Source: an uncultured Collinsella sp.
Lineage (GTDB): Bacteria > Actinomycetota > Coriobacteriia > Coriobacteriales > Coriobacteriaceae
Direction: 5' to 3'
Length of the DNA stretch: 8,149 bases
NCBI GenBank assembly: GCA_905207425.1
Contig: CAJLLB010000090.1
Coordinates: 1 to 8,149 of the forward strand
The position numbers were made by a program, and so were the translations under genes. The notes beneath the pieces were generated by a model. The model searched no databases. It was not told the DNA's origin and saw only the letters and a list, made by a program, of their open reading frames with translations. Positions 3,845-8,149 of the stretch are shown here, in pieces (positions within the stretch are counted from its first letter, which is position 1; each line of letters begins with the position of its first letter).

Positions 3845-4528
3845 ATGTCCGATTCGAGCGACAGTTCTAAGCCGCGACCCAAGACCGCGGCCGTTCCACA
3901 CTACACGGTGGGCGAGGAGATCATGAACTCCGTCACCCACGGTGTCGGCTGCCTGCTGGGCATCGCGGGCCTGGTGCTCCTGATCGTATTCGCTGCCCTG
4001 CGCGGCGGAGGCCCAGCCCATATGGCCGCGGCAATTGTCTATGGCGTCAGCATTATCCTCGAATACCTAGCCTCCACGCTCTACCACGCGATTCAGCCCG
4101 CGCGCGCCAAGCGCGTGTTTCGCATCATCGACCATAGCTGCATCTACCTGCTCATAGCCGGCAGCTATACCCCGTTTTGCCTTATCACGCTCGCAAACGA
4201 CGGCGGCCCCGCGCTGTTCTTTGCCGTATGGGCCATCGCCATCATCGGCATCGCCCTCGAGTGCTTTATGCGCGAGCGTCAACCGCATTGGGTAAGCGGC
4301 CTGGTCTACCTGCTGATGGGCTGGCTCGTTGTCTTTAAGCTGCCCGAACTTGTGTCGCTGCTCAACCCCGTGGCACTTGCCCTGCTCGCCGTCGGCGGCG
4401 TGTGCTACACCGCGGGCGTGCCGTTCTATATCGCCAAAAACGTGCGCTATCTGCACAGCGTGTTTCACCTGTGGGTGCTCGCCGGCAGCATCTTCCAGTT
4501 CATGGCGGTGATCCTCTTCGTAATCTAG
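3845..4528 (+). CDS. Hemolysin III / PAQR-family seven-helix membrane protein
   Basis: The chosen start, ATG 3845, gives 227 residues. GGAGG at 3829-3833 is the ribosome binding site, 11 nt upstream. A TTG at 3827 in the same frame overlaps this site and is therefore unlikely to be the start. The protein shows the full HlyIII/PAQR pattern: EEIMNSVTHGVG (24-35), STLYH (77-81), DHSCIYLLIAGSYTPF (96-111) and HSVFH (204-208), with seven hydrophobic segments in about 34-227. Ser77, His81, Asp96/His97 and His204/His208 correspond to the conserved residues around the zinc site in this superfamily. Bacterial members have been linked to membrane lipid homeostasis; the haemolysin name comes from a Bacillus cereus protein and need not reflect real cytolytic activity here. 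The gene is transcribed divergently from the hydrolase. Confidence 0.94.
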   Translation: MSDSSDSSKPRPKTAAVPHYTVGEEIMNSVTHGVGCLLGIAGLVLLIVFAALRGGGPAHMAAAIVYGVSIILEYLASTLYHAIQPARAKRVFRIIDHSCIYLLIAGSYTPFCLITLANDGGPALFFAVWAIAIIGIALECFMRERQPHWVSGLVYLLMGWLVVFKLPELVSLLNPVALALLAVGGVCYTAGVPFYIAKNVRYLHSVFHLWVLAGSIFQFMAVILFVI

Positions 4529-4573: not shown

Positions 4574-4603
4574 TTGCCGTATCTGTCATCAACGTTTTAC
4601 CCT
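4574..4603 (+). promoter_or_regulatory. Possible promoter before the CNNM transporter gene
   Basis: TTGCCG (4574-4579) and TACCCT (4598-4603) are separated by 18 bp in the 110-bp gap between the hemolysin-III and CNNM genes. Each box deviates from consensus. The gap also has a GC stem (GCGCCC 4542-4547 with GGGCGC 4560-4565) without a T-run, so it is not a clear terminator, and read-through from the upstream gene is equally possible. Confidence 0.3.
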
Positions 4604-4618
4604 AACGTCCCGAATCTT

Positions 4619-4638
4619 GGAGGTTCGAGAAACTCCCG
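4619..4638 (+). promoter_or_regulatory. Distant ribosome binding site of the CNNM gene
   Basis: GGAGG at 4619-4623 is the only strong Shine-Dalgarno sequence before the ATG at 4639, but it is 15 nt away, well beyond the usual 5-10 nt. No in-frame ATG, GTG or TTG lies closer to it. The ATG is supported by protein content, since the first membrane helix follows directly. Confidence 0.5.
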
Positions 4639-6012
4639 ATGGACATAACCATCTCCCTTATCACCACCCTCGTTTTGACCCTCATCAACGGCTACTTCTC
4701 CATGTCCGAGATGGCGCTCACCACGGCAAAGCGCGCCGTGCTGGAGCACGAGGCCGAGGAAGGCGACAAACGCGCCGAGCGCGCCATTAAGCTGGCCGCC
4801 GATTCCGACCAGCTGCTCGCCACCATCCAGGTCGCCATCACGCTCGTGGGCTTCGCCTCGTCCGCCGTCGCCTCGACGAGCCTGTCCGACCCGCTTGCCA
4901 CATGGCTCATGAGTTTTGGCATCGCGCCGCTCTCTGCCATCGCGCGCGGTCTGGCGCCGGTCATCATCACCGTTGCGGTCGCCTTCCTCTCCATCGTAAT
5001 TGGCGAGCTCGTGCCCAAGCGCATCGGCCTGGCCAACGCCGAAGGCGTGTCCAAGCAGGTCGTGGGACCGCTCTCCGTGTTCCAAAAGATCGCCCGTCCG
5101 CTCGTGTGGCTGACCGGCGCTTGCTCCGATGGTCTGGCCCGCATCCTGCGCATCAAGAGCGCCGACGACCGCCAGAATGTCTCGGAGGAAGAGATTAAGT
5201 ACATGGTCTCGGAGCAGGACGACCTGCTCGACGAGGAAAAGCGCATGATCCACGAGATCTTCGACCTGGGCGACACCGTTGCCCGCGAGGTCATGGTGCC
5301 GCGCGTGGACACTACCATGTGCGAGGACGACGAGACGGTCGCCGACGTGCTGTCCACCATGCGCCAGACCGGCTTTAGCCGCATCCCCGTCTATCACGAG
5401 GATCCCGACAACGTCGCCGGCATCGCGCACATCAAGGATCTGATCCAGCCTTCGCTCGACGGCAAGGGCGACCAGCCCATCGCCGACTTTTTGCGCGACG
5501 CCACCTTTGTGCCCGACACCAAGGACATCCTGCCGTTGCTGTCCGAGATGCAGACCTCGCACGACCAGATCGTAGTGGTCGTGGACGAGTACGGTGGCAC
5601 GGCCGGCATCATCACCATCGAGGACATCGTCGAGGAGATCGTGGGCGAGATCGAGGACGAGTTCGACCCCGACAACAAGTACCTCACGCGCCTTTCGCGC
5701 CGCGAGTGGCTCGTCGATGGGCGTTTTTCGTGCGATGACGCGATTGAGCTTGGTTGGCCGCTCGAGGAAAGCGATGATTATGAGACCATCGCCGGCTGGA
5801 TTTTGGAGCTTTGCGACTCGGTACCCGACATCGGAGAGGTGTTTGAGGTCGCGGGGTACAAGTTTAAGGTGCAGTCGATGCGTGGCCAGCGCATCTCGCT
5901 CATTCGCGTGATCGCTCCGGCCGAAACCGATAAGAAGGATTCCGAGTCCTTGGCAGATAAGCCGGCGGCGTCGGGTGCGGGCTCTGCGGACCCGCACGAC
6001 GGCGACGAGTAG
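4639..6012 (+). CDS. CNNM/CorC-type transporter ('hemolysin family protein', DUF21-CBS-CBS-CorC_HlyC)
   Basis: The 457-residue protein has the standard architecture. A DUF21/CNNM membrane domain covers about 1-175, with hydrophobic segments near 4-26, 60-82, 96-122 and 140-162 and the motifs NGYFSMSEMAL (17-27) and GELVPKRIGL (122-131). A CBS pair covers about 217-337 (REVMVPRVD at 216-224; VVVDEYGGTAGIITIEDIVEEIVGEI split across 313-338). A CorC_HlyC domain spans about 350-425 (VDGRFSCDDA). Relatives such as CorC/MpfA and CNNM proteins export Mg2+ or Na+, with ATP-Mg sensed by the CBS pair; ion choice here is inferred from family. The last about 30 residues are an acidic, Ser/Ala-rich tail, probably disordered. 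The next gene follows after 24 bp, so they are probably co-transcribed. The 'hemolysin' name is historical. Confidence 0.95.
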   Translation: MDITISLITTLVLTLINGYFSMSEMALTTAKRAVLEHEAEEGDKRAERAIKLAADSDQLLATIQVAITLVGFASSAVASTSLSDPLATWLMSFGIAPLSAIARGLAPVIITVAVAFLSIVIGELVPKRIGLANAEGVSKQVVGPLSVFQKIARPLVWLTGACSDGLARILRIKSADDRQNVSEEEIKYMVSEQDDLLDEEKRMIHEIFDLGDTVAREVMVPRVDTTMCEDDETVADVLSTMRQTGFSRIPVYHEDPDNVAGIAHIKDLIQPSLDGKGDQPIADFLRDATFVPDTKDILPLLSEMQTSHDQIVVVVDEYGGTAGIITIEDIVEEIVGEIEDEFDPDNKYLTRLSRREWLVDGRFSCDDAIELGWPLEESDDYETIAGWILELCDSVPDIGEVFEVAGYKFKVQSMRGQRISLIRVIAPAETDKKDSESLADKPAASGAGSADPHDGDE

Positions 6013-6036
6013 GGCAAGGAAGAGTAGGGGAGAGTT

Positions 6037-6882
6037 ATGGCAGGCCTGTTCAACATCCTTAAGGTCACCGTCAGCGAGGACAAGATCTGCGCGCATGTGC
6101 TGGTAAACCCCGGCATGCCGCTCATGACCTCGGAGGACATCGAGGCCACGGCGCGCGTGTACTACCTGGTACCCGCGATTGCCAAGCACCTGTGCCTGGG
6201 CGATTCCGGTCGCGAGTTCCAGGACTGCATGGGCCAGACCGAGCTTTGCCATCTGCTGGAGCACGTGACGGTAGAGCTCATGAACGAGACCGGTCTTGCT
6301 GGCAGCATTTCGTGCGGCCGCACTCGCGTGAGCGAGCACGATGAGCGCGTCTTTGAGGTCGAGCTTTCGTGTCCCGATGACGCGCTGGCCATCGGCGCGC
6401 TGTCTTCGGCGACCTTTATGATGGATTGGGCCTATCTGCATGCCGACCAGCCCGCTCCCGATGTGGACGGTACGGTCGCGGGTTTGCGCAACCTGGTACT
6501 GGGCATGCGTGCCGAGGCCGAGGGCAAGGACCCGCACGAGGCCGTCGCCGCCGCGAACGCCGAGGGCGAGGCCGGGGACGCGACCGAGGACGAGGCGCCT
6601 GCCGAGACTGCCGTCGAGCCTGTCGACGAGGCACCTGCCGAGGCGGCTTCCGAGCCCGAGCCCGCGGAGCCCCAGGGCGTCCCGAGCTTTGACGACGAAC
6701 CGCAGGAGGCAATCGATACCGAGGGCGCGACCGCCGAAAGCCACGAGGCCCCCGCTGCCGTCTACGGTGGCGCGGCGACGGCTCCGGTTGCCCCCGTGCA
6801 CGAGGGAGCGCTGCCGCTCGTTGACGGCGCCGGCGAGGACCCGGCCGCCACGATGGCCATGCCGGCCGTGCCGCAGGAGTAG
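6037..6882 (+). CDS. Stand-alone cyanophycin-synthetase-N-domain-like protein with acidic tail
   Basis: ATG 6037 is preceded by a good site, AGGGGAGAG, and gives 281 residues. I read residues about 30-135 as related to the N-terminal domain of cyanophycin synthetase (CphA1). The order LVPAIAKHLC (44-53), then CHLLEHVTVELM (71-82), then CGRTR (93-97) and VFEVEL (105-110) parallels the CphA1 order LVEHFC, GHIVEHVALELQ, GRTRET and a beta strand, as I remember that family. The HLLEH stretch (72-76) is an intact HxxEH motif, with E80 four residues later. The ATP-grasp and Mur-ligase domains that polymerise Asp and Arg are absent. Residues 161-281 are low-complexity Ala/Pro/Glu/Asp: 30 acidic residues, one Lys and no Arg by my count. 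No signal peptide or clear membrane helix is seen. Function is unknown; a metal-binding or peptidase-like role is speculative. It sits 24 bp after the CNNM gene. Confidence 0.75.
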   Translation: MAGLFNILKVTVSEDKICAHVLVNPGMPLMTSEDIEATARVYYLVPAIAKHLCLGDSGREFQDCMGQTELCHLLEHVTVELMNETGLAGSISCGRTRVSEHDERVFEVELSCPDDALAIGALSSATFMMDWAYLHADQPAPDVDGTVAGLRNLVLGMRAEAEGKDPHEAVAAANAEGEAGDATEDEAPAETAVEPVDEAPAEAASEPEPAEPQGVPSFDDEPQEAIDTEGATAESHEAPAAVYGGAATAPVAPVHEGALPLVDGAGEDPAATMAMPAVPQE

Positions 6883-6961
6883 GCTCACCCGCTTATCACC
6901 ATCATGTACCTGCGCCTTTACCGTACGCAGATGAACAAGACGGCAAGCGCTGTGCTGCGGG

Positions 6962-6967
6962 TATAAT
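6962..6967 (+). promoter_or_regulatory. Consensus -10 box (TATAAT) before the YtxH-like gene
   Basis: A perfect TATAAT lies 51 bp upstream of the ATG at 7019. The sequence 16-18 bp further upstream (about 6938-6945, gacggc) is a poor -35 box. The predicted 5' leader contains a short hairpin, GGGCG (6986-6990) with TGCCC (6997-7001), ending just before the AGGAG site at 7004-7008. This suggests the YtxH and PRC-barrel genes have a promoter separate from the CNNM pair. Confidence 0.55.
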
Positions 6968-7018
6968 GGACAGCATTCAAACGGTGGGCGCCGAGGTGCC
7001 CGCAGGAGAGGAATGAAC

Positions 7019-7408
7019 ATGGGTAAGACTTTCAACTTTATCTCGGGTGCGCTCTTCGGTGCTGCCGCCGGCGCCATCATCGGCGTCGCCCTGGCTCCGC
7101 GCTCGGGCGCCGAGACCCGCGCCATGGCTGCCGATATCGCCAACGACGCCTGGGATAACATGCGCGACACCTACGAGCACGGTGCCGAGGAGGCCCGCGC
7201 CGCGGTCAACGATTTTGGCCCGATGGTCGACGCCAAGACCGATGACCTGCGTGCCAAGGTCGACCTTGCCCGCGAGCGCATGGACCAGCTGCGAGAGCAG
7301 CTCAACGACGCTATCTCGGGCGGCAACGTGACGCCCGCCGCCGATGTCGTGGTCGAAAACGCCGTCGAGGCCGACGCCGAGGCCGCGGAGCCTTCGACCG
7401 AGGCATAA
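7019..7408 (+). CDS. YtxH-like small membrane protein with coiled coil
   Basis: I chose ATG 7019 (129 residues), 10 nt after AGGAG (7004-7008). The in-frame ATG at 7013 would add only Met-Asn and is just 4 nt from the site, so it is possible but tight. The N terminus has the YtxH layout: a glycine/alanine-rich membrane helix (about 7-27, FISGALFGAAAGAIIGVAL) followed directly by LAPRSGAETR (27-36), the family's most recognisable segment. An amphipathic, charged region (about 45-98) is probably a helical coiled coil. The last about 30 residues are acidic and Ala-rich (ending AEPSTEA). YtxH proteins are small, poorly understood membrane proteins, often associated with stress in Firmicutes; no biochemical role is established. 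The stop codon overlaps the next start (TAATG), pointing to translational coupling. Confidence 0.85.
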   Translation: MGKTFNFISGALFGAAAGAIIGVALAPRSGAETRAMAADIANDAWDNMRDTYEHGAEEARAAVNDFGPMVDAKTDDLRAKVDLARERMDQLREQLNDAISGGNVTPAADVVVENAVEADAEAAEPSTEA

Positions 7409-8149
7409 TGCGCGCCGGGGATTTTGTCGGCGCCAAGATCTATCGCAAGCCTACCGAGGATAAGCGCACCAAAAAAGACGGCACGCCGCGCGGCCCTAAA
7501 AAGCTCGGCAAGATTCACTTTCCGGTCTTTACCCCGGGCGGTACGCGCGTGGTGGGCTTTATGGTTCGCCAGTCCGATATCGCGGGTATGATCGAGCGCC
7601 CTGACCGATTTGTGGCGCTCGATGCCATTGGCGTCTATGAGGGCGCCATCGCAGTTGACGACGTCAAGGGCACCTACGATACCGCTGCGGCCAAGCGCCT
7701 CGACATCAACCTGGACGATTGCATTATCTGGGTTGGCATGGACGTGCGCACGGAGTCGGGCGATGTCGTGGGCTATTGCTCGGATGTGGAGTTCAAGCCG
7801 CGTTCGGGTGTCGTGCAGACGTTCTACGTGACCGCCGGCACCGCCTCGAGTGTGCTGGTGGGCGACACGCAGATGCCGCCGACGATGCTGCGCGGCTATG
7901 CGGACGGCGCGATGATCGTTTCGGACGAGGTCAAGTCGCTCGGGTATTCGGGCGGTGCCGCCGCAAAGGCTGCCGAGGCAAGCGTCGTGGTGGGCGATAA
8001 GGTCAAGAAGGGCGCCAAGGTGCTCGATGACAAGGGCTCGGTCGCCGTGGACAAGGGCAGCCGCGCACTGGGCAAGCAGCTCGGCAAGACGCGCGGTATG
8101 TTCAAGGCCTTTAAGCAGGTGAATAAATGTGCCTGCGAGGAGGTGCCCG
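7408..8149 (+). CDS. PRC-barrel domain protein (3' truncated by window end)
   Basis: ATG 7408-7410 overlaps the preceding TAA by one base, with GAGG at 7400-7403 as a weak ribosome binding site. The frame stays open through 247 codons to the window end, so the C terminus is missing. Two beta-rich segments look like PRC-barrel halves or repeats: about 34-82 (GKIHFPVFTPGGTRVVGFMV) and about 105-143 (IIWVGMDVRTESGDVVGYCS, then the VEFKPRSGVVQTFYV strand). GxxVGxxxD-like turns of this sort are typical of PRC barrels, which bind partners in photosynthetic reaction centre H, RimM and many actinobacterial proteins. The visible C-terminal part (about 185-240) is Lys/Ala/Gly-rich (GDKVKKGAKVLDDKG) and basic, unlike the acidic tails of the upstream products. 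Role unknown; coupling to the YtxH-like gene suggests the two products work together at the membrane. Confidence 0.8.
   Translation, partial: MRAGDFVGAKIYRKPTEDKRTKKDGTPRGPKKLGKIHFPVFTPGGTRVVGFMVRQSDIAGMIERPDRFVALDAIGVYEGAIAVDDVKGTYDTAAAKRLDINLDDCIIWVGMDVRTESGDVVGYCSDVEFKPRSGVVQTFYVTAGTASSVLVGDTQMPPTMLRGYADGAMIVSDEVKSLGYSGGAAAKAAEASVVVGDKVKKGAKVLDDKGSVAVDKGSRALGKQLGKTRGMFKAFKQVNKCACEEVP

Follow-up and report, generated by a model that had tools for sequence, protein, structure and literature searches.

An 8,149-nucleotide stretch of contig CAJLLB010000090.1 from an uncultured Collinsella sp. (assembly GCA_905207425.1; hereafter the window) encodes a free-standing homologue of the N-terminal (N) domain of the cyanophycin synthetase CphA1, in which the catalytic residues of that domain are retained. 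The open reading frame (ORF) lies exactly where an earlier, sequence-only reading of this DNA had placed it, and AGGGGAG, spotted by eye at 6026–6032, stands just 5′ of it. The gene, its putative active site, and its tail are as follows.

6037–6882, + strand: stand-alone CphA1-N-domain-like protein of 281 amino acids, a predicted zinc amide hydrolase (ORF, PF18921, NCBIfam, family profile, and predicted fold)
6187–6195, + strand: H51-x-C53, aligned to CphA1 H57 (supporting His) and C59 (zinc ligand), in 88/88 stand-alone rows; roles from PMC9262961
6226–6228, + strand: C64, not Arg, at the position of CphA1 R70 (cyanophycin contact; alignment)
6250–6264, + strand: H72-x-x-E75-H76, inverted zincin motif in predicted helix 70–85 (alignment and model)
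6574–6879, + strand: tail, residues 180–281, rich in Ala, Glu, and Pro and mostly predicted to be disordered (pLDDT < 50 for residues 180–276)

The homology to the CphA1 N domain, first proposed from the letters of the window, was borne out by profile searches. PF18921 (Cyanophycin synthase-like N-terminal domain), a family named for CphA, matched residues 38–126 with E = 3.8e-7 and 30.5 bits, above the gathering cut-off of 27, and was the sole Pfam family with E ≤ 1 for the 281-residue protein. The NCBIfam CphA models aligned by their N-terminal part alone (E = 2.5e-7 and 2.1e-6). A search of the PDB with the single window sequence gave a weak match (7wac, E = 0.59); a 69-row family profile matched three CphA1 sequences (E = 9.8e-16, 5.2e-13, and 1.2e-11) and, apart from CphA1, no PDB sequence at E ≤ 1. 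The predicted model superposes on the CphA1 N domain (residues about 1–160 of SuCphA1; PDB 7lg5 and 7txv; PMC9262961), with the same fold as the PF18921 superfamily. The elements LVxxxxxxLC, HLLEHVTVEL, and GRTR, which the sequence-only reading had noted, are all present. Unlike CphA1, the window protein is separate from the G (ATP-grasp) and M (Mur-ligase) domains, neither of which is in the ORF; the match in Pfam and NCBIfam is to the N domain alone, as expected of the stand-alone architecture suggested earlier. The maximum hydropathy over 19 residues is 1.2, and no obvious signal or membrane segment was seen.

The same earlier reading held that an acidic tail had replaced the ligase modules. 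The tail is indeed acidic (D+E 23% and K+R 2% in residues 146–281), and the model of the whole protein, which is confident up to about residue 170, shows two additional helices at 143–161 and 166–179. Replacement did not stand, because across the class the protein is often tail-less: the stand-alone proteins at 98 loci range from 132 to 453 amino acids (starts chosen by rule), and at many loci the protein has only 132–160 residues. The tail is thus a variable addition in some lineages. Judged by its sequence, the window protein belongs to the CphA1 N-domain superfamily and is not a CphA whose ligase modules were swapped for a tail.

The conservation of the site was assessed in a class-wide search centred on Collinsella stercoris (class Coriobacteriia). 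The loci comprised those of a first search (L001–L028), the 30 best Pfam matches in the class (L029–L058), 40 places picked by hand from the class matches listed, partly the same genes (L059–L098), and 19 divergent additions (L133–L151). The first 98 loci gave 72 distinct proteins, from which the 69-row alignment (A1) was made, with near-copies (L001, L016, L018, L078, and L080) excluded or replaced; together with the divergent additions, this yielded 88 stand-alone rows. Left out of the joint table were L152, which is a chance match within a 1377-residue frame of G072, and, for L137 and L138, the second piece. At these two loci, the N-domain match falls into two pieces, about 20 and about 70 residues apart in the same frame, which suggests an insertion in the loop that follows the HxxEH helix.

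The pattern H-x-C-x18-HxxEH occurs in all of the first 98 loci. Eight columns are invariant in the 69-row alignment (P46, H51, C53, T68, H72, E75, H76, and T96), and the five catalytic positions, H51, C53, H72, E75, and H76, are kept in all 88 rows; in terms of residues only, the set of zinc ligands and general base (C53, H72, H76, and E75) is therefore complete throughout. The intact HxxEH motif noticed in the sequence-only reading is confirmed by these counts, and H51-x-C53 extends the site beyond what that reading had recognised. H72, E75, and H76 all lie on the one helix of the model that superposes on CphA1. The N domain is the part of cyanophycin synthetase that cleaves the polymer to yield primers. 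In SuCphA1, zinc is held by H79 and H83 of HxxEH together with C59, E82 acts as general base, H83 is supported by H57 and E87, and R70 touches the polymer; primer-independent synthesis is weakened or lost when H57, C59, R70, H79, or E82 is changed (PMC9262961). The HxxEH motif is also common to the window protein and the M16 (inverzincin) peptidases. However, M16 enzymes are large proteins whose third ligand is a downstream Asp, Glu, or His, whereas the window protein has an invariant upstream Cys, and no M16 family matched it in Pfam at E ≤ 1. CphA1 itself differs from M16 in the same way, with an upstream Cys as the third ligand and a far smaller domain (PMC9262961).

Whereas the catalytic residues are frozen, the substrate contact has changed. 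The position of R70 holds Arg in 18/18 actinobacterial CphA-type rows and in none of the 88 stand-alone rows, where it is Glu (43), Val (24), Cys (12), Ala (7), or Ile (2). Position 76, named beside the R70 site, is Trp in all 18 CphA-type rows and in 0/88 stand-alone rows, and the CphA1 S60 position is Ser in only four of the 69 A1 rows. Sixteen of the CphA-type rows came from frames of 924–1334 residues and two (L129 and L130) from frames of 235 and 262; four more long-frame genomes (G437, G495, G505, and G562) were left out. The spacing between Cys and His was tried as a further hallmark, with C-x18-H in 98/98 stand-alone loci against the Cx19 reported for CphA1 (PMC9262961), and was dropped, since the actinobacterial CphA-type rows also have x18 and the spacing fails to separate the two forms.

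The gene is nearly universal in the class. The A1 profile (E ≤ 0.001) matched 284 of 296 sampled Coriobacteriia genomes, nearly all once, and missed 12, whereas PF18921 (E ≤ 0.01) matched 258 and missed 38; among the matches listed, the A1 frames in the class were at most 701 residues long. The first 140 residues of the window protein recurred at 100% identity in 18 of the 28 loci found first. In a phylum sample of 396 genomes, 62 had a match, of which 38 were already in the class sample. The other 24 comprised 20 matches in frames of 924–1334 residues and four in frames of 190–262 (G456, G534, G579, and G648). Two of the long frames (L113 and L115) were tested and are genuine CphA, with TIGR02068 above 1150 bits. 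The N domains at L129 and L130 (G456 and G534), with Arg at the R70 site in short frames, may be cut or shifted frames or else short CphA-type proteins. The five catalytic residues are all present in L132, one of two short relatives from outside the class sample; the other, L131, differs at H51. A quick tree (101 rows and 146 columns, without bootstrap; L002, L021, L023, L025, L130, L137, L138, and L152 excluded) separated all 17 actinobacterial CphA-type rows from the stand-alone rows by a branch with SH-aLRT 100; as it is unrooted, it is silent on which state is older.

The known pathway was not found alongside the stand-alone form. No CphA match passed its cut-off in the ten genomes checked, from Collinsella and related bacteria, where the partial matches covered the region of the M domain or of the ATP-grasp module or were the N-domain gene itself, and cyanophycinase was above its cut-off in none of these ten or, subsequently, of 27 genomes. 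This check for cphA and cphB had been proposed with the sequence-only reading. The joint absence agrees with the co-occurrence described in PMC10206079, where every Actinomycetota genome with cphA1 is reported to have cyanophycinase as well. In G004, G008, and G009, a Mur ligase at a distance of about 11 kb was considered as a scattered CphA M domain and rejected: the G004 enzyme and its unlinked counterpart in G001 are of the MurE type (TIGR01085 above cut-off), the G008 and G009 copies lying outside that scan.

The N-domain gene is flanked in the window by three genes on the same strand.

4639–6012, + strand: gene for a CNNM/CBS/CorC_HlyC membrane protein (Pfam), 24 nucleotides upstream of the N-domain gene
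7013–7408, + strand: YtxH-like gene (PF12732, E = 2.1e-13, above cut-off)
7408–8148, + strand: PRC-barrel-like gene that runs off the window (PF05239, E = 0.011, below cut-off)

We scanned 57 loci, including the window and some near-copies, with profiles built from the neighbours. Within the 10 kb downstream, 48 loci have a YtxH gene on the same strand and 47 have a PRC-type gene. Three upstream arrangements were distinguished: CNNM (25 loci, the window among them), RlpA with a membrane protein of 62–80 amino acids (15), and SerS with a single-span membrane protein (12); five loci had other arrangements. In these 52 loci, therefore, a same-strand membrane-protein gene of one of three families lies upstream, each product with a 19-residue stretch of mean hydropathy of at least 1.88. 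The 62–80-residue single-span protein lies directly upstream in its 15 loci (L065:9604-9798:+ and equivalents), and the one tested had no Pfam match. In the SerS type, the single-span protein also lacks a Pfam match, and the end of its gene abuts or overlaps the N-domain start (L082:10243-11547:- and L072:8912-9778:+). At L082 and L083, the neighbours on both sides either overlap the N-domain frame or are no more than 4 nucleotides from it, and an aminotransferase frame starts at most 5 nucleotides after the N-domain gene at L079, L080, L089, and L092. Between positions 4500 and 7100 of the window, no promoter-like site was found, and the two terminator-like sites, against 1.6 expected, are both within the CNNM gene.

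Taken together, the evidence tips slightly towards a free-standing CphA N-domain homologue that is a zinc-dependent amide-bond hydrolase with some peptide that is not cyanophycin as its substrate, as judged from its sequence and by analogy with CphA1. On that analogy, C53, H72, and H76 would bind one zinc, E75 would activate water, and H51 and E80 would orient H76. Hydrolysis is indicated because the general base is conserved along with the metal ligands, and cyanophycin is disfavoured as the substrate because the R70 contact has changed and the pathway was not found. Among the options raised by the sequence-only reading, that of a metal-dependent peptidase or amidohydrolase acting on another substrate is supported, whereas the complete conservation of the site makes a pure binding module less likely. 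From the neighbours we infer that the substrate would be cytosolic and linked to the cell envelope: a membrane protein is encoded upstream, YtxH and PRC proteins are encoded downstream, and two of the three upstream types add an aminotransferase and a second Ddl-type dipeptide ligase. The neighbours also suggest work near the membrane, weakly, because they differ between lineages.

Several observations weigh against such an enzyme. Only 14 of the 19 divergent rows have T96 (two have Ser and three a gap), the CphA1 E87 position is Asp, Gln, or Ser in 23 of the 88 stand-alone rows, and those rows leave out the 12 class genomes without a match and the weakest matches (e.g., G293, G170, and G261). 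L131, from the 1.2-Mb genome G648 outside the class sample, has Gln for H51 and is possibly a degenerate relative. Weak cyanophycinase-model matches (E ≤ 0.001) below the cut-off occur in nine of the 27 genomes, and the aminotransferase and Ddl paralogue are missing from all 25 CNNM-type loci, so that they do not define the substrate. The N domain of CphA1 is itself a slow hydrolase (PMC9262961), and with the R70 contact lost, the groove may be unable to bind any peptide.

The peptidase of the CphA1 N domain was described in 2022 as a cryptic site within a single biosynthetic enzyme. Here every aligned copy of a separate protein has the same catalytic residues, and that protein occurs in 284 of the 296 sampled genomes of Coriobacteriia, the class to which the gut genus Collinsella belongs, with no sign of the known polymer. 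A concrete biochemical hypothesis is now available for a gene that is near-universal but uncharacterised in Collinsella and its relatives, and the origin and wider use of the CphA1 N-domain active site become directly testable. A bolder and rather improbable proposal is that the protein is the free-living form of the third enzyme behind cyanophycin synthetase, a core, one-per-genome zinc amidase of Coriobacteriia that would act at the membrane on the peptide product of an envelope-linked ligase, with the same site elsewhere fused to two ligases to supply primers. Among the open-access papers listed on the CphA1 N domain or on cyanophycin together with Coriobacteriia, Eggerthella, Collinsella, or the gut, no title or opening of an abstract mentions such a stand-alone protein, which does not prove its absence in print; the available parts of PMC7771536, PMC10591310, PMC6096775, and PMC10206079 do not describe one, and the available text of PMC9262961 contains neither "stand-alone" nor "LuxS".

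The neighbouring ligase raises an alternative to which we give a modest chance: the N domain may cut the product of the Ddl-type ligase, with the genes of the peptide-making ATP-grasp enzyme and of the cutter near each other, much as the two activities are joined in one protein in CphA1. Of the 27 loci of the SerS and RlpA types, 20 have a pyridoxal phosphate (PLP) aminotransferase and a Ddl-type ligase on the same strand in the 10 kb downstream. This ligase is a second copy, a better-scoring Ddl being present elsewhere in the 11 such genomes covered, and its omega loop is changed, reading M-Y (11) or R-M/L (9) in 20 of 21 rows, versus K-Y in 10/10 rows of the other Ddl (misaligned row L155 excluded). 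Ten Ddl genes from six further genomes gave four readable omega loops, all of the K-Y type. However, the CNNM-type loci tell against this explanation, and an aminotransferase orthologue (at least 56% identity) was found in only nine of 22 genomes, so the N domain persists without the module. The changed-loop ligase downstream of the N-domain and aminotransferase genes is an observation in its own right in two of the three arrangements (L060–L092, e.g., L082:7550-8542:-).

A comparably unlikely alternative is a non-catalytic, metal- or peptide-binding regulator of the adjoining membrane protein. The membrane-protein genes upstream in 52 loci, the loss of the R70 contact, and the predicted disorder of the acidic tail in the window protein would suit such a role, but E75 is as invariant as the ligands, and a mere metal site would not need a general base.

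Less probable still is another zinc reaction on the same ligands, such as deformylation or LuxS-like chemistry, instead of peptide cleavage. LuxS carries the Cys-His-His/HxxEH set, and LuxS chains appeared low in the Foldseek list; however, their query TM scores were 0.23–0.29 with probabilities of at most 0.35, and LuxS (PF02664) was not among the Pfam matches of the window protein at E ≤ 1. A genuine, separate LuxS accompanies the N domain in 15 of 27 genomes, and this co-occurrence and the poor fold match led us to reject a LuxS substitute. The Cys-His-His geometry of CphA1 has been likened to that of peptide deformylase, in which the helix orientation is opposite (PMC9262961), and no peptide deformylase family matched the window protein in Pfam at E ≤ 1.

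A cyanophycinase-like enzyme acting on cyanophycin imported from outside is very improbable. The predicted fold and catalytic residues match the CphA1 endo-cyanophycinase domain, but the Arg at the R70 site and the Trp at position 76 are both gone, no cyanophycinase passed its cut-off in 27 genomes, and the window protein has no obvious signal or membrane segment.

Two further features of the window lie apart from these questions. An 857-residue open frame at 4597–7170 on the − strand runs antisense to the CNNM and N-domain genes and most likely just reflects codon use at high G+C. A DUF362 protein with 4Fe-4S cluster domains (Pfam) is encoded at 1236–2441 on the + strand.
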